DNA of 64,000 nt from contig NZ_CP042910.1 in the NCBI RefSeq assembly GCF_008298035.1, positions 1,632,001-1,696,000 of the forward strand, given 5' to 3'. Below the pieces are notes generated by a model, which was given only the letters and a program-made list of their open reading frames with translations, made no database searches and was not told where the DNA came from. The stretch's first letter is position 1. The number at the start of each line of letters is the position of its first letter. The stretch comes from Gimesia maris (GTDB lineage: Bacteria > Planctomycetota > Planctomycetia > Planctomycetales > Planctomycetaceae). Positions 2,786 to 52,458 of the stretch are shown here, piece after piece. Made by a program: the position numbers and the translations under genes.

Positions 2786-3681
2786 CAGTGGTCTCGTTCT
2801 AATATAAAGTGGGCCAGTTCTTCCAATCGTTGGCCGTGGCTCCCAAGTGGGGCGATCGAGAGGCACGCTTCTTCAATTAAATTTTGAGAGCGTCGTCGAC
2901 TTTCTTCAACGCCAATCAGGGAGGGGTATGTTAATTTACCGTGATCGGCGTCTTTTCGCACGCCTTTTCCCATTTTTTCTTCATCACCGGTTAAATCAAG
3001 CAGGTCATCGGTAATTTGGAATGCCAATCCTATGCAAGTGCCGTATCTTTCCAGGTTTTTCAGGGTTGCTGGGTCTGCTCCGCCAATGCGAGCCCCCATG
3101 GTCAGTGCACTGCAGATCAGGCGGCCTGTCTTACGTTTGTGAATGGCTTCCAGAATTTCGAGTGTGGGGTTTTCGAGGTGCTCTGATTCCAGATCGGCGA
3201 CCTGACCTCCGACCATTCCCACAGCGCCAGCGGCATTTGCGAGATCGACACAACATGCTGCAGCACAGGATTTTACTTCGATCTGATTAGCGAGCAGTTC
3301 GAAGGCACGGGTCAATAACGCATCGCCAGCGAGGATTGCATTTGCTTCACCGAATTTGATGTGGCTGGTCGGTAAGCCACGGCGGAGTTCATCGTCGTCC
3401 ATCGCCGGTAGATCGTCATGGATCAGAGAATAGGTGTGTACCATTTCGATGGCACAGGCGGCTGGTAAGGCTGTGCTCTGATCACCGCCACAGGCTTCAC
3501 AGCTGAGTAGCACCAGGATGGGGCGTAAGCGTTTTCCTCCAGCAGAGAGGCTGTAGGACATTGCTGCTTTGAGAATCGGCGGGCAGTCACCCGATTGATC
3601 GAGGGCCTCTTCCAACTGGCGATTGACCAGTGTCTGCAGGTTGCTCCACATTTCTTTGAAGGGCTGGGATGAATCGCTCAT
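2785..3681 (-). CDS. ispA: Polyprenyl synthetase (farnesyl/geranylgeranyl diphosphate synthase)
   Basis: Class I trans-prenyltransferase that adds isopentenyl diphosphate to allylic diphosphates to give C15 or C20 products. The 298-residue length fits the IspA family. The first aspartate-rich motif DDLPAMDDD is at about residues 89-97 and the second, TDDLLDLTGD, at about 225. GGKRLRP near residue 48 is the usual substrate-binding motif. The gene sits immediately before dxs with a one-base stop/start overlap, an isoprenoid operon arrangement common in bacteria. An xseB gene, often found upstream in proteobacteria, is absent. Chain length cannot be read with certainty from sequence, so C20 specificity is possible. 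Confidence 0.9.
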   Translation of the reverse strand: MSDSSQPFKEMWSNLQTLVNRQLEEALDQSGDCPPILKAAMSYSLSAGGKRLRPILVLLSCEACGGDQSTALPAACAIEMVHTYSLIHDDLPAMDDDELRRGLPTSHIKFGEANAILAGDALLTRAFELLANQIEVKSCAAACCVDLANAAGAVGMVGGQVADLESEHLENPTLEILEAIHKRKTGRLICSALTMGARIGGADPATLKNLERYGTCIGLAFQITDDLLDLTGDEEKMGKGVRKDADHGKLTYPSLIGVEESRRRSQNLIEEACLSIAPLGSHGQRLEELAHFILERDH

Positions 3682-3729
3682 TCAATCAGAGTCTTTAACT
3701 ATTGTCTTGTGTAATACGTATGAGTTTTT

Positions 3730-4935
3730 TCAGGCTGATTCTGTCGCCGTCGCCAGCAGCAGTCCAATCTGACAGGCTTTGAGATATTCATCAATCATCA
3801 GGGTTTCACTGGTCGTGTGGATGTCCTGTTGGCCACATCCCAGTGTGACAGTGGGAAATCCATGGGCGGTCATCCAGTTGGCATCCAGACCACCATTGGC
3901 AATCGTCAGTTCCGGTTGTCCTCCCTGTTTTTCAATGGCAAGCCGCGCTGTCTGCACAGCGGGTTCCTGTTCCGGGAGGCGGAAGGAATCATATTTCAAA
4001 TAGGATTCGAAAGAAACGCTCCCCTGTTTCCCTTCACTGTTTTTCACTGATTTGGCCGCTTTCAGGAAAGCCTTTTTAAACTCATCCAGTATTTTCTGGC
4101 GAAAGCGGGGATTGTGACTGCGGGCTTCCGCTTTGATGGTTAATTCGGGCATGACTACATTCGTTGCGGCTCCGCCTTCGATGACTCCAACATTACTGGA
4201 TCCCGTGTTCTTGCCTTTGATTACCAGACCGTGCCAGCCATTCGTGTAGAGGTCGTCAATAGCCCGGGAGGCGATTACGGCGGCGCTGACACCGCATTCC
4301 GGATGCGCGCCGGCGTGACTGGCGATGCCTTGAATCTGGATCAGCATACCCGAGTCACCGGTTGCACCGATGCAGACCATGTCAGAGAGCTTACCATCCC
4401 AGTTGAAGCACATCCGGGGCTTTCCCAGCTTACTGGTTGTGAGCAGACGAACGCCGACCAGACCGATTTCTTCCTGAACCATCCAGCAGAAGCTGAGTGG
4501 TGGATGCGGCAGATTGTGTTCGAGAATGGTGAGCAGTGCGTTAAGTATGACGCTGCAGCCCGAGCGGTCGTCTGCACCTAATGCGGTCAGTTCACTTTTG
4601 GAATGGATCAGATCTCCTTTTTTGACCGGTTTTGCCCCCTCACACAGAGGGACGGTATCCATATGGGCCATCAGCAGGCGGCGTGGTCCCCGCATTGTGC
4701 CGGGCAGTTTGACGATCATGTTCCCTGTCTGACCACCAATCGGACTTTTCTTATGGGCAGAATCAAACTGGATCATTGTTTCAGACAGTCCCGCTTTGAG
4801 CAGGCGGCTTTTGATTTCCGCAGCGATCAGTGCCTCTTCACCACTCTTACCGGGGATTGCCATGAGCTCAGTCACGAGCTGTAACGCTTTTTTAGAATTG
4901 ACTTTAATTGCAGTCTCTGTGGAATGGTTGCTCAT
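3730..4935 (-). CDS. M20-family metallopeptidase, PepT-like
   Basis: Predicted cytoplasmic dizinc aminopeptidase or related amidohydrolase of the M20/M25/M40 family (401 residues). Visible metal and catalytic motifs in order are HMDTVP (H91, D93), GADDRSG (bridging Asp about 122), QEEIG (E155 general base, E156 ligand), and a late HTTSE histidine. The dimerisation/lid domain lies between, with SHAG near residue 210. The overall pattern is closest to tripeptide aminopeptidase (PepT)-like proteins, but substrate cannot be deduced. There is no signal peptide. It lies 48 bp upstream of ispA on the same strand and could lead that operon, although the functions are unrelated. Confidence 0.82.
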   Translation of the reverse strand: MSNHSTETAIKVNSKKALQLVTELMAIPGKSGEEALIAAEIKSRLLKAGLSETMIQFDSAHKKSPIGGQTGNMIVKLPGTMRGPRRLLMAHMDTVPLCEGAKPVKKGDLIHSKSELTALGADDRSGCSVILNALLTILEHNLPHPPLSFCWMVQEEIGLVGVRLLTTSKLGKPRMCFNWDGKLSDMVCIGATGDSGMLIQIQGIASHAGAHPECGVSAAVIASRAIDDLYTNGWHGLVIKGKNTGSSNVGVIEGGAATNVVMPELTIKAEARSHNPRFRQKILDEFKKAFLKAAKSVKNSEGKQGSVSFESYLKYDSFRLPEQEPAVQTARLAIEKQGGQPELTIANGGLDANWMTAHGFPTVTLGCGQQDIHTTSETLMIDEYLKACQIGLLLATATESA

Positions 4936-48342: not shown

Positions 48343-48354
48343 CCGGTACCACCC
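48343..48354 (+). repeat. A0: 3' end fragment of REP-like element
   Basis: CCGGTACCACCC, identical to the outer end of the full elements, beginning six bases after the stop of the moaD-like gene. A 26-nt linker follows before unit A1. Confidence 0.75.
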
Positions 48355-48380
48355 AATAAATAATTGAAACCAACTTTTTC

Positions 48381-48565
48381 GGGTGGCCCCGGATGTAATC
48401 CGGGGTTGTCGTAGACAACAGGAGGTTGCAGAGATAGTGATGTCTGGTGTGAGAAGTCGCCTCACTTTCTGAACTGAAGAGGTAGGCAGCATTGCTTTGA
48501 ATCGATCATTTCAACTGAGACCTCCTGCTCGCTGCGCTCGTACCGGATTACATCCGGTATCACCC
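48381..48565 (+). repeat. A1: BIME-like element (about 185 bp)
   Basis: Starts GGGTGGCCCCGGATG and ends CATCCGGTATCACCC. It contains the two terminal palindromes in inverted orientation, plus AGGAGGT near the left end and ACCTCCT near the right. The middle is the most diverged of all copies (ATAGTGATGTCTGG region), suggesting it is an older copy. A 27-nt linker separates it from A2. Confidence 0.88.
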
Positions 48566-48592
48566 GATATATTATAGGAATCAACAACTTCC

Positions 48593-48777
48593 GGGTGGCC
48601 CCGGATGTAATCCGGGGTTGTCGTGAGACAACAGGAGGTGGCAGTGTTGGGTTGGCTGGTTTGAGAGCGATCCTCAATTTCTGAAATGTAGAAGCAGGTG
48701 GCATTGCTCTGCGCCGATCGCTGCAGCTGAGACCTCCTGCTCGCTGCGCTCGTACCGGGTTGCATCCGGTACCACCC
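48593..48777 (+). repeat. A2: BIME-like element (about 185 bp)
   Basis: Full element with left palindrome CCCCGGATGTAATCCGGGG, second hairpin GTTGTC/GACAAC with loop GTGA, and right palindrome ACCGGGT-TGC-ATCCGGT, where one pair is a G-T wobble. It is the last copy before the response regulator gene. Confidence 0.9.
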
Positions 48778-48854
48778 ATTGATTGCGCAACACTTCCCAG
48801 GGGAACTCTCGAATTATATTCGGGTTACCCATTTTTCTAATATCCGAGATGGTG

Positions 48855-49235
48855 TTAATCGGGTTTCAGTAGTTCATTGACTGCTTCGACCAGGTCTTCG
48901 ATGTGGTAGGGTTTGGGGATGAAGCGGTCGACGCCGCGATCGAGGGCCAGTTCGCGGTATTTGGGTTCGCTGTTTCCTGTCACCATGATAATCCGCGGGG
49001 CACGCTGTTTATAATTGGTGATGGTGTCAAGGACGGCAAATCCGCTGCGTCGGGGCATGACCAGGTCCAGAAGCACCAGGTCGGGTGCGTCGCGCTCGAT
49101 TTTCATCAGACCTTCGTTTCCGTCGTGGGCAACCAGAACCTCGTACCCGGCGGCTTCCATGGCCATTTGAAGCGGTTCAGTCAGACCTTCGTCGTCATCG
49201 ATAATCAGTACGCGTTTTTGAGGAGTTATGTTCAT
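48855..49235 (-). CDS. Single-domain response regulator (CheY-like)
   Basis: A 126-residue receiver domain without an output domain. The acidic pair and phosphoacceptor are visible as IIDDDEG (D13/D14) and LLDLVMP (D57); VTGNSE supplies the conserved Thr and IPKPYH the conserved Lys. Such stand-alone receivers work as phosphorelay shuttles or by protein contact. No histidine kinase gene is nearby. The ATG at 49235 is used because the longer frame (to 49268) adds a non-conserved basic segment. It is divergent from purA, between repeat groups A and B. Confidence 0.9.
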   Translation of the reverse strand: MNITPQKRVLIIDDDEGLTEPLQMAMEAAGYEVLVAHDGNEGLMKIERDAPDLVLLDLVMPRRSGFAVLDTITNYKQRAPRIIMVTGNSEPKYRELALDRGVDRFIPKPYHIEDLVEAVNELLKPD

Positions 49236-49475
49236 TATCCTGCTGAAAAAACCTGGTCTGGCCCGCACGGAGGCGATCTCTGTAAGGAATTATATCATCA
49301 GTCTCAGCGAAAATCCAATTATTAAGATCAACCTGACGCGTGGCGCTCCCCAAACGGGTTTTAGTTCGATAAAATGGGCCGGTGCGCGCCTGGAATGCGC
49401 CTTGTCTGGTCCTTTCTGAATCAGGCAGAATCATTTTTTCTCCGTTTTATATTGTCTAACCAGTGGGATAGTGTT

Positions 49476-50762
49476 GTGTCAGCGACGTCGGTAATCGGAT
49501 TGCAGTGGGGCGATGAAGCCAAGGGCAAAATTGTAGATTTACTCTCAGAGCAGCACGAAATCGTGGTGCGATACCTGGGGGGAAATAATGCAGGCCACAC
49601 CGTCAAATTTGATGGAAAGACTTATAAACTCTCACTTTTACCGGCGGGAGTTCTGAATCCGAACGTCACTTCCGTGATAACCGGGGGAGTGGTCATCAAT
49701 CCCAAGGCATTTCTACAGGAAATGGCCTCCATTGTTGAGCAGAATGGTCCGATTGAAGCCAGTCGGCTGCTGATCAGTGACCGGGCCCACGTGATTTTTC
49801 CCTATCATATGCAGGAAGAAGTGGTTTTCGAGCAGAGTCGCAAGGAAAAAGCGATCGGCACAACCATGCGGGGAATCGGGACCTGCTACCGTGATAAAGC
49901 GGGCCGAACGCACGCTATCCGGATGGGGGATCTGGTGCGTCCCGAGTTTTTCCGGAGTCGCCTGGAAGAAATCGTCGCCTACAAAAACAAGATTTTTCAG
50001 GCGCTCGACCCGGAAGCCGAACCCCTGGATGTCGATGCGATCTACGAAGAATATTCAGGTTATGCCGAGCAACTGAAGGATCATGTTGTCGACACCAGTA
50101 CCTATTTGCTGAATGCGGTCGCTGAGAAGAAAAAAATTCTGTTTGAAGGCGCCCAGGGAAGTCTGCTGGACATTGACCATGGTACGTTTCCTTATGTGAC
50201 CTCTTCCAACAGTTCCGGTTGTGGAATTCATAATGGAAGTGGCGTCTCCGAACGCTACATCGATAAGATGATCGGCGTGGTGAAGGCCTATACCACGCGC
50301 GTAGGAGGCGGACCTTTCGTGACCGAACTGCATGATGAGATTGGTCAGCGAATTCGCGATGTGGGGAACGAATATGGTACGGTTACCGGGCGTCCCCGAC
50401 GCTGTGGCTGGTTTGATGCTGTTGCGACCCGCTATGGCGCCAACATCAGTGGTGTGGACTGCATTGCCGTGATGCTGCTGGATGTCTTGAGCGGCCTGGA
50501 TGAACTGAAGATCTGCGAAGCTTATGACATCAATGGCAAGCAGGTCATTGATTTCCCCAGCCACATTCTGGATCTGGAACAGGCCAAACCTGTCTATCGT
50601 ACCATCGCAGGCTGGAAAGAAGACATCACCGGCATTCGTAAAATGGAAGATCTGCCGGAAAATGCGATTGCTTATATCAAGGCAATCGAGGAAATCATCG
50701 GCAAACCCGTGGAGATTGTTTCCGTGGGACCGGATCGTGAGCAGACAATTCTGTTGAAGTAG
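49476..50762 (+). CDS. purA: Adenylosuccinate synthetase
   Basis: Joins IMP and aspartate with GTP to give adenylosuccinate, the first step towards AMP. The 428-residue length is typical. The N-terminal GTP motif [14 protein letters not shown] is at residues 8-21, and [11 protein letters not shown] and [10 protein letters not shown] further on are hallmarks. The GTG at 49476 matches the family start; the open frame begins at 49374 but the added part is not conserved. A truncated REP-like element begins immediately after its TAG stop, so its 3' untranslated region is repeat-derived. Confidence 0.95.
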
Positions 50763-50889
50763 GCTGGCTGGCCTGAAAGCGATCCTCATTTTCTGAAACG
50801 AAGGGTTCGGTGGCATTGCTCTGAGCCAATCGTTGCAGCTGAGACCTCCTGCTCGCTGCGCTCGTACCGGATTACATCAGGTACCATCC
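50763..50889 (+). repeat. B0: left-truncated BIME-like element abutting purA stop
   Basis: Homology to other copies starts within a few bases of the purA stop (GGCTGGCCTGAAAGCGATCC) and continues to the right terminal palindrome, which is mutated to ACATCAGGTACCATCC. The left palindrome and second hairpin (about 60-70 bp) are missing. A 27-nt linker leads to B1. Confidence 0.85.
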
Positions 50890-50916
50890 GCAATTTTATG
50901 CGAATCAACAATTCTC

Positions 50917-51102
50917 GGGTGGCCCCGGATGTAATCCGGGGTTGTCGTCAGACAACAGGAGGTGGCAGTGTTGTGTGCGTCTGGTTTGAGAGCGATCCTC
51001 ATATTCTGAAACGTAGAAGCAGGTGGCATTGCTCTGAGCCGATCGCTGTAGCTGAGACCTCCTGCTCGCTGCGCTCGTACCGGATTACATCCGGTACCAT
51101 CC
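50917..51102 (+). repeat. B1: BIME-like element (186 bp)
   Basis: Complete copy: GGGTGGCCCCGGATG start, hairpin GTTGTC/GACAAC with loop GTCA, GCGATC and GATCGC internal inverted pair, and right palindrome ACCGGAT-TAC-ATCCGGT. Ends CCATCC. A 27-nt linker follows. Confidence 0.9.
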
Positions 51103-51129
51103 GCTATTTTATACGAATCAACAATTTCC

Positions 51130-51292
51130 GGGTGGCCCCGAATGTAATCCGGGGTTGTCGTGAGACAACAGGAGGTGTCAGAGTTGGGTGCGTCTGGTTT
51201 GAAAGCGATCCTCAATTTCTGAAATGTAGAAGCAGGCGGGATTGCTCTGCGCCGATCGCTGCGCTCGTACCGGATTACATCCGGTACCATCC
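51130..51292 (+). repeat. B2: BIME-like element with internal deletion (163 bp)
   Basis: Same ends as B1 but 23 bp shorter. The loss lies between two TCGCTG copies that flank the ACCTCCT arm in the other units, so the right partner of the AGGAGGT pair is gone. The left palindrome has one change (CCCCGAATG). Confidence 0.88.
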
Positions 51293-51319
51293 GCTATTTT
51301 ATGCGAATCAACAATTTCC

Positions 51320-51504
51320 GGGTGGCCCCGGATGTAATCCGGGGTTGTCGTCAGACAACAGGAGGTGGCAGTGTTGGGTTGGCTGGTTTGAAAGCGATCC
51401 TCAATTTCTGAAATTTAGAAGCAGGCGGGATTGCTCTGCGCCGATCGCTGCAACTGCAACCTCCTGCTCGCTGCGCTCGTACCGGATTACATCCGGTACC
51501 ACCC
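51320..51504 (+). repeat. B3: BIME-like element (185 bp)
   Basis: Complete copy with loop GTCA in the second hairpin, the GGTTGGCTGG middle variant also seen in A2, and right end CCGGTACCACCC. A 27-nt linker of the common sequence (TATTTTATGCGAATCAACAA) separates it from B4. Confidence 0.9.
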
Positions 51505-51531
51505 GCTATTTTATGCGAATCAACAATTTCC

Positions 51532-51716
51532 GGGTGGCCCCGGATGTAATCCGGGGTTGTCGTGAGACAACAGGAGGTGACAGAGTTGGGTGCGTCTGGT
51601 TTGAAAGCGATCCTCATATTCTGAAACGTAGAAGCAGGTAGCATTGCTCTGCGCCGATCGCTGTAGCTGAGACCTCCTGCTCGCTGCGCTCGTACCGAAT
51701 TGCATTCGGTACCACA
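51532..51716 (+). repeat. B4: BIME-like element (185 bp) with compensatory hairpin change
   Basis: Complete copy whose right palindrome is ACCGAAT-TGC-ATTCGGT instead of ACCGGAT-TAC-ATCCGGT; both arms changed so that pairing is kept. It ends 61 bp before the RAYT start codon. Confidence 0.9.
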
Positions 51717-51777
51717 CAAAATGGTTTTATGATCAATAAGAGTTTGGCGGATCATTCTCGTTTGTTATCATGTGAAC

Positions 51778-52290
51778 ATGAACAAAAGAATCAACTTCGA
51801 TGATCAGCGATATGTCCACTTCATTACTTTTTCCTGTTATGGAAATCGAACCTGTCTTGATCACGATGATGCCAAACGGCGTGTTTTGGGAGCTCTGAAT
51901 CACGAGATTTTACGACACTCTGCGACATGTGTTGGGTTTGTGATAATGCCAGATCATGTTCACTCATTAATCTGGTTTAAGGAGCCTGGAGAGCTGAGTG
52001 CATTCATTAGGGATTGGAAGCGGAGTTCCAGTCGTTCTATCAAACAGTTTCTTCAAAATCACAGTGAGTATGCGAAGAACTTCCAGTCGGCAGATCCGCT
52101 TTGGCAAAAACGCTATTATTCATTTGAAATTGAGACAGAAGAAAAAATCGAAGAGAAATTGACTTATATCCACATGAACCCTGTTAAGAAGGGGCTGGTA
52201 GAAAACATCATGGATTGGCGCTGGAGCTCTGCGCGATATTATGTATCTGGAAAATCTGTAGGTGTACCTATTGGGTGGCCCCGGATGTAA
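51778..52290 (+). CDS. REP-associated tyrosine transposase (RAYT, Y1 HUH family)
   Basis: A 170-residue single-strand DNA transposase-like protein. The HUH metal site is in MPDHVHSLIWF (H60, H62), and the nucleophile tyrosine is expected in YIHMNPVKKGL (Y130), both hallmarks of the RAYT branch of Y1 transposases. WRWSSARYY is the typical C-terminal signature. The final residues GWPRM and the stop TAA are coded by the first 18 bases of element C1. Start is ATG 51778 (a GTG six bases upstream is possible). It sits between element B4 and C1, which fits a protein acting on these repeats; whether it is active cannot be told. Confidence 0.92.
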   Translation: MNKRINFDDQRYVHFITFSCYGNRTCLDHDDAKRRVLGALNHEILRHSATCVGFVIMPDHVHSLIWFKEPGELSAFIRDWKRSSSRSIKQFLQNHSEYAKNFQSADPLWQKRYYSFEIETEEKIEEKLTYIHMNPVKKGLVENIMDWRWSSARYYVSGKSVGVPIGWPRM

Positions 52291-52458
52291 TCCGGGGTTG
52301 CCGTGAGACAACAGGAGGTGACAGAGTTGGGTGCGTCTGGTTTGAAAGCGATCCTCATATTCTGAAACGTAGAAGCAGGCGGGATTGCTCTGCGCCGCTC
52401 GTTGTAGCTGAGACCTCCTGCTCGCTGCGCTCGTACCGGATTGCATCCGGTACCACCC
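52273..52458 (+). repeat. C1: BIME-like element overlapping RAYT 3' end
   Basis: Complete 186-bp copy beginning at GGGTGG inside codon 166 of the RAYT frame. The second hairpin has one changed base (GTTGCC), and the right palindrome is ACCGGAT-TGC-ATCCGGT ending CCACCC. Confidence 0.92.

Follow-up and report, generated by a model that had tools for sequence, protein, structure and literature searches.

What are the repeats that crowd the purA locus of the planctomycete Gimesia maris, and are they substrates of the transposase encoded among them? The window, that is, the whole 64,000-nucleotide (nt) stretch of DNA that was analyzed, is part of the single 7.82-Mb contig (C1) of a genome labeled G000 here; other G numbers denote compared genomes, and L numbers denote loci. 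Within it, eight full or partial copies of an element of ~185 bp and one short remnant, all on one strand, lie in three groups around purA and a gene for a Y1 transposase (window positions 48343 to 52458; Table 1). Direct reading, repeat search, and alignment all recover this inventory, as had an original prediction made from the letters of the window. We consider it probable that the locus represents a REPtron-like system, in which a repetitive extragenic palindrome (REP)-associated tyrosine transposase (RAYT), of a clade that we name alpha (beta being another RAYT type), is coupled to genome-wide REPs that form two-part folds in single-stranded DNA, with the ~185-bp units being nonautonomous.

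Each element end is an arm with two hairpins

Both ends of an element are built as an arm with a fixed order of parts: a head (GGGTRN), a first hairpin (hairpin 1), an abutting second hairpin (hairpin 2), and a tail that is usually CARGA and most often reads CAGGAGGT or CAGGAAAC. Hairpin 1 has 8 bp and a 3-nt loop, and its sequence varies while its pairing is kept. Hairpin 2 takes one of two forms, namely, TTGTC-NNN-GACAA or TTGCC-NNN-GGCAA in the arm that we call A (the loop being at times 4 nt) and CGAGC-NNN-GCGAG, with G.A and A.G at two positions, in the arm that we call B. In five parsed B arms of G000, the outer C-G pair is replaced by T-A and the G.A pairs are retained. The element ends, the GTTGTC/GACAAC hairpin, and the AGGAGGT/ACCTCCT pair of the original prediction are present as described, but its statement that the palindromes lack a GTAG-type head is wrong: in most window arms, the hairpin is immediately preceded on its 5' side by GTGG or GTAG. 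The heads among 172 G000 arms include GGGTGG (68), GGGTAA (27), GGGTGA (25), GGGTAG (23), and GGGTGC (10). The published REP head is GT(A/G)G (PMC2817692), and such a head is found here at the foot of the palindrome, with many arms differing in its last base. Instead of the one hairpin per unit of a REP, the arms have two abutting ones.

Compensatory changes support the fold. Across 33 distinct arms, pairing in hairpin 1 reaches 97%, and four of the eight pairs of its stem (stem 1) show double changes; hairpin 2 is 79% paired, the lower value arising because 17 B arms carry the G.A positions; sliding the stem partners as a control abolishes the pairing. Stem-1 position 6 is A-T in 78, G-C in 76, and mismatched in 2 of the 156 arms (of the 172 from G000) with at least seven stem-1 pairs, and loop 1 is GNA in 127 of these 156. 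The hairpin-2 loop is GNA or GNNA in 134 of 149 parsed G000 arms (counted from a table; 23 of the 172 could not be parsed). Tandem G.A pairs in a context like that of the B arm are stable in DNA. When closed by two or more G-C pairs, GNA and GNNA loops are reported to form extraordinarily stable, nuclease-resistant DNA mini-hairpins (PMC4686876). Folded as single-stranded DNA, the element E7 reaches -35.4 kcal/mol versus a mean of -26.6 kcal/mol for shuffled sequences, none of the 200 shuffles being as good (z, -2.84).

The unit has two different ends

In the ~185-bp unit, an A arm and a B arm with heads outward flank about 90 to 110 nt. Adjacent head-out arm pairs in the fetched loci, with a gap of at most 300 nt, are A-B in 44 of 44 cases in G000 and 29 of 29 in the congeneric genome G014; thus, with 73 of 73 pairs agreeing, the inverted unit has two different ends. 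Head-in neighbors are likewise A-B (20 of 20 in G000 and 5 of 5 in G014), and same-strand neighbors are of both kinds (unlike versus like, 24 versus 11 in G000 and 16 versus 7 in G014). The head-out gaps in G000 cluster at 91 to 96 and 107 to 109 nt. The unit therefore shares with REPINs (REP doublets forming hairpins) the inverted doublet, the outward heads, and the common spacing, but not the symmetry of two like REPs. Among 55 classable units (15 of 70 were dropped), 51 have tails of the same type on both arms, which fits pairing between the arms or common descent, without separating the two. We also considered avoidance of identical stem 1 in the two arms and rejected it: 0 of 70 units have such identity, but shuffling expects only 0.5 and 1.0.

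Other repeats are found near these units. The repeat TTTCTACCACGAAAAACACGAAA adjoins several G000 units (e.g., L009, L017, L019, L021, L022, and L023), and a T-rich tract usually lies 3' of the B end. A dispersed repeat of ~550 to 1,000 bp, 82 to 91% identical to G014 stretches (L177, positions 3108 to 3902; L190; L202; L210; and L239), seems to contain directly oriented A and B arms.

Copies across the genome and the genus

The element is not confined to the locus but forms a genome-wide family resembling bacterial interspersed mosaic elements (BIMEs) or REPINs, which supports the BIME-like nature given in the original prediction. G000 holds 92 whole or partial matches to a 187-bp element and at least 150 arms (150 scored of 5,500 candidates), and there are 178 arm matches in the fetched loci. 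A head-plus-palindrome pattern has 106 exact matches in G000 versus 0 for its reversed form. These numbers (92 element matches and 106 versus 0 reversed) exclude chance. The 106 pattern matches, the at least 150 arms, and the 178 arm matches place the family above the roughly 100 copies per genome by which REPs are recognized. Among 17 genomes of the genus, some of them incomplete assemblies, the pattern occurs in 16 (not in G003); it occurs in 0 of 42 genomes of other genera, and its reversed form is absent from all 59.

The alpha RAYT gene is present in 5 of the 17 genus genomes: G000, G001 (79% identical), G013 (73%), G005 (73%), and G009, where it is broken by a stop. In all five it lies beside purA between two A-B units, upstream of the response regulator gene in four and downstream of purA in the window. 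The four genomes with an unbroken gene have 106, 87, 79, and 47 heads, and G009 has 114. Four outgroup genomes on the genus tree have 0 to 12 heads; G016, which falls inside the RAYT-bearing clade without an alpha RAYT, has 16; and G006, which together with G007 and G015 is absent from the tree, has 31 and no alpha RAYT (assembly 76% complete). Arms stand at the purA locus in 10 of 14 genus genomes examined, including G011, G014, G012, and G008, where they stand without a RAYT; neither arms nor RAYT were found at this locus in G002, G003, G004, and G010 (the G010 contig ends close upstream). The purA-locus palindromes differ between species and are mostly alike within a locus, with intact pairing. 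Separately, the unit at the purA locus of G016 is degenerate, and a distant RAYT relative (L083; 31 to 34% identical; not placed on the tree) lies downstream of purA there.

The transposase is a constrained, single-copy RAYT

The window transposase carries the Pfam domain Y1_Tnp (PF01797) with the HUH and tyrosine motifs given in Table 1. It passes the NCBIfam RAYT model NF047646 (123.9 bits versus a cutoff of 80) and falls below the cutoff of the IS200 model NF033573 (28.7 versus 55), and its nearest solved structure, ranked first by sequence and predicted fold, is that of Escherichia coli TnpA_REP (4er8), so the identification as a RAYT in the original prediction stands. The AlphaFold model is modest (mean predicted local distance difference test score [pLDDT], 65) and too weak for a surface that meets hairpin 2 to be read from it. 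IS200/IS605 elements have several near-identical transposase copies; the window gene is single copy in G000, and its next relative is 37% identical. The gene is under constraint, with proportions of nonsynonymous (pN) and synonymous (pS) differences of 0.12 to 0.17 and 0.73 to 0.81, respectively, across six pairs; these proportions replace the ratio of nonsynonymous to synonymous rates (dN/dS) because dS is saturated in five of the six. It occupies the position of a spacer between units E7 and E8, and its last codons and stop fall in the first palindrome of E8. The C terminus is still full length, and its VGVPIxWP-like end is largely kept in relatives.

One arm layout follows one RAYT clade across genera

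Alpha RAYTs of other genera (41 to 54% identical) are flanked by arms with unrelated hairpin-1 sequences in the same order: head, hairpin, abutting hairpin (mostly with a GNA or GNNA loop; GCC and ACC loops in G039), and CARGA. When the loci were scanned for this grammar, 14 of 18 alpha loci yielded a total of 46 arms and the reversed sequence yielded none; two pairs of loci are apparently the same contig (equal lengths), leaving about 16 distinct alpha loci. L097 gave one arm, on a scan of the whole locus, and L045 has a two-hairpin repeat that was seen by eye. The same scan found arms in 1 of 94 other RAYT loci, and that one, L103, falls in the alpha clade; two more non-alpha rows, L034 and L035, were scanned separately. 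On a tree of 61 RAYTs, the layout is present in 15 of 17 alpha rows (14 by scan and L045 by eye) and in 0 of 44 others, the support of the alpha clade being 95/93. Six beta and eight acidobacterial loci were also viewed; their hairpins are single where visible, often with a GGGTG head, and several loci are without a hairpin.

In ten arms taken from other genera, all 12 pairs are preserved and 9 of the pairs show double changes; since these arms were picked because they fold, the level of pairing is expected, and only the variety of pairs counts as evidence. Outside the genus, a second model, built from these ten arms, has matches in all 9 genomes that carry an alpha RAYT (RAYT match E value below 1e-30) versus 9 of 33 others (P of about 1e-4, with the genomes not being independent). 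Five head-out pairs at loci of other genera (L280, L285, L286, L298, and L299) join different hairpin-2 stems. Separately, in G039 an alpha RAYT (C1:2996504-2998253; L041 and L274) is flanked by same-strand arm arrays that repeat about every 62 bp, and a further dense array of same-strand arms lies at C1:7236057-7237430. The original prediction had not recognized the two-hairpin arm, the difference between A and B ends, the GNA loops, or the conservation of the layout within a RAYT clade.

A proposed mechanism and the observations that weigh against it

We propose that an arm, once single stranded, would fold with its GGGTRN head serving as the guide and that the HUH tyrosine nuclease would bind the head and hairpins and cut beside them. 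Binding and cutting of the folded arm at the guide by the RAYT, a role of hairpin 2 as part of the substrate, and mobility of the units by this route are predictions of this model. The RAYT would move or copy the ~185-bp unit, and tandem arrays and homogenized copies would then expand by recombination between copies. Hairpin 1 diverges in sequence under retained pairing, and hairpin 2 is a stem of 4 to 5 bp, usually with a GNA or GNNA loop.

A stronger version, which we hold only tentatively, is that these are a separate class of REPtron whose substrate has two parts, a fast-diverging hairpin conferring species identity and a near-constant DNA mini-hairpin, with distinct left (A) and right (B) ends. 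Here the mini-hairpin might offer the protein a second place to dock or might clamp a single-stranded intermediate against nucleases; in B arms of the genus it reads C-GA-GC-loop-GC-GA-G, with tandem G.A pairs.

Several observations weigh against the proposed RAYT-driven system. Heads are many in genus genomes without an alpha RAYT gene, namely, G011 (113), G008 (100), G012 (82), and G014 (65); the original prediction had named equal copy numbers without such a RAYT as an outcome that would speak against it, and within the genus these four genomes present that outcome. On the genus tree, all four nest inside the RAYT-bearing clade, which fits repeated loss of the gene with relic elements left behind. 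We compared 75 G000 element clusters with fetched G014 stretches, and 40 had colinear flanks (some possibly paralogous). At 12 of the 40, G014 holds arms at the same length within 2 nt, and thus many copies are old. At 7 of the 40, G014 has no arm, but alignment of five of these seven revealed no clean empty site and no target duplication; the junction content differs, and boundaries or duplications are undefinable because the intergenic DNA is too diverged. Likewise, no clean excision of the RAYT gene was seen between G001 and its close relatives G012, G008, and G005. The stretch downstream of purA that in G000 contains E3 to E8 and the RAYT is represented in G014 by a truncated copy and a single full unit, and the local arrays probably grew by recombination. 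Beyond the genus, the tail at L045 departs from CARGA, no arms were found at L046 (an alpha locus close to a contig end) and L048 (an alpha locus whose gene contains a stop), and at L045 and L097 the arms on either side of the RAYT gene are alike, so the A-B asymmetry does not hold everywhere. The second model was built with arms from five of the nine alpha genomes (the other four have 3 matches in G027, 101 in G029, 11 in G033, and 9 in G034), and it finds no arms in G000 itself. It also has matches in genomes without a strong alpha RAYT, the largest unexplained positives being G018 (43), G040 (39), G052 (26), and G017 (15), followed by G022 (9), G057 (4), G020 (3), G021 (3), and G024 (1).

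Alternative explanations

The persistence of copies without a RAYT and the 12 sites of unchanged length would also be expected if the elements were structures used by the host (terminators, protectors of mRNA ends, or chromosome sites) that selection maintains and that spread chiefly through recombination and duplication, with the RAYT as a bystander or domesticated partner. The T-rich tract after the B end (38 units) agrees with such a role, as do the 26 gene junctions with units, of which 11 are convergent, 11 codirectional, and 4 divergent (by rough open reading frame calls; 6 of 42 units fell inside the calls and were left out), and the single full unit of G014 in place of E4 to E8 with the RAYT. 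We nevertheless regard this explanation as unlikely, because it accounts neither for the association of the layout with one RAYT clade across genera nor for the position of the RAYT between units at each of the five genus loci.

It is considerably less likely that another Y1 protein drives the units, for example, one of the beta RAYTs of G000 at C1:2855151 (L032) and C1:6883158 (L033). Such a driver would account for G014 and G011, which have a beta-type RAYT, no alpha RAYT, and many heads; however, the repeats beside the two G000 genes belong to another family, which has a GGGTG head and a single hairpin, and G012 has 82 heads yet no RAYT match at an E value of 1e-6. Finally, although the arms covary and E7, folded as DNA, lies below shuffled energy, a structured noncoding RNA family is hardly credible, since an Rfam search of the elements at E values up to 1 returned only an unrelated weak match inside purA, the loop class fits known stable DNA mini-hairpins (PMC4686876), and GT[AG]G-type heads point outward at both ends.

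Features of the window locus

Table 1. Repeats and genes of the purA-RAYT locus in window coordinates
Feature	Positions	Strand	Basis
B-arm end remnant CCGGTACCACCC	48343..48354	+	Direct reading, alignment
Element E1 (A arm +, B arm -)	48381..48565	+	Repeat search, alignment
Element E2	48593..48777	+	Repeat search, alignment
Response regulator gene (neighbor)	48855..49268	-	Pfam PF00072
purA (neighbor)	49476..50762	+	Pfam PF00709; locus compared in 14 genus genomes
Element E3, 5' half missing, starts just past purA stop	about 50768..50889	+	Alignment, genome matches
Element E4	50917..51102	+	Alignment
Element E5, internal deletion of ~24 nt	51130..51292	+	Repeat search, alignment
Element E6	51320..51504	+	Alignment
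Element E7, B-arm head toward RAYT	51532..51717	+	Alignment
RAYT gene (HUH motif, DHVH; tyrosine in YIHMNP); final codons and stop within E8	51778..52290	+	Pfam, motifs, RAYT model
Element E8, A-arm head codes RAYT C-terminal GWPRM-stop	52273..52458	+	Direct reading, alignment

Two further observations concern other sequences. Palindromes that resemble the single-hairpin GGGTG family also occur near some two-hairpin arms. The sequence AAAAGGTGTCAGGAACCTT and its inverse flank a different Y1 gene (L034) and recur around a transposase-like insertion in G014 (L260).

Relationship to known systems

RAYTs, REPs with GT(A/G)G heads, REPINs, heterodimeric REPs, and REPtrons are all known (PMC2817692, PMC3116915, PMC3733652, PMC6006769, PMC8266576). 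Little is understood of how REPs spread, and the way in which REPs are recognized varies among RAYT groups (PMC8266576). In this respect the present family offers several genera with one RAYT clade, many hairpin-1 sequences, and one layout, that is, cognate pairs for swap experiments, and the apparent natural losses of the RAYT with element populations left behind make decay after loss measurable within a genus.

REPINs, like the units described here, consist of two inverted REPs and a spacer, can form one long hairpin, are linked to a RAYT, and are accompanied by singlets and clusters (PMC3116915); they are symmetrical as described, whereas the present units have two abutting hairpins per REP and unlike ends. 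BIMEs and heterodimeric GTAG REPs share the alternation of inverted REPs, and there are precedents for unlike partners: GTAG-3 of Enterobacteriaceae forms dimers only of unlike partners, and GTAG-24 of Pseudomonas aeruginosa has unlike stems (PMC3733652). Relative to these, the second hairpin, the CARGA tail, and the planctomycete RAYT clade are features of the present system. The E. coli TnpA_REP/REP pair (4er8) has the same HUH fold and a guide tetranucleotide 5' of the hairpin, its REP being a single bulged hairpin where ours has two, and in a Marinomonas system a GTGG guide is still cut, less efficiently (PMC8266576). Also related are TIRtrons with "double palindromic TIRs," RAYT-like genes flanked by two-palindrome repeats, some of them repeated in the genome, and Rhodopirellula baltica is named as rich in RAYT-like genes of this kind (PMC3733652). 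The text that was compared leaves the head-hairpin-hairpin-tail grammar, the loop class, and a link to one RAYT clade unstated, and the TIRtrons may overlap with the present layout. A literature search, from which subscription papers mostly fell outside, returned no description of the head-hairpin-mini-hairpin-tail grammar or of its clade. The two-hairpin repeats and their RAYT clade thus look like a structurally new variant of the known REP/RAYT systems, as judged from sequence; since double-palindrome repeats beside such transposases were mentioned in 2013 (PMC3733652), it is the variant that appears new and not the kind.

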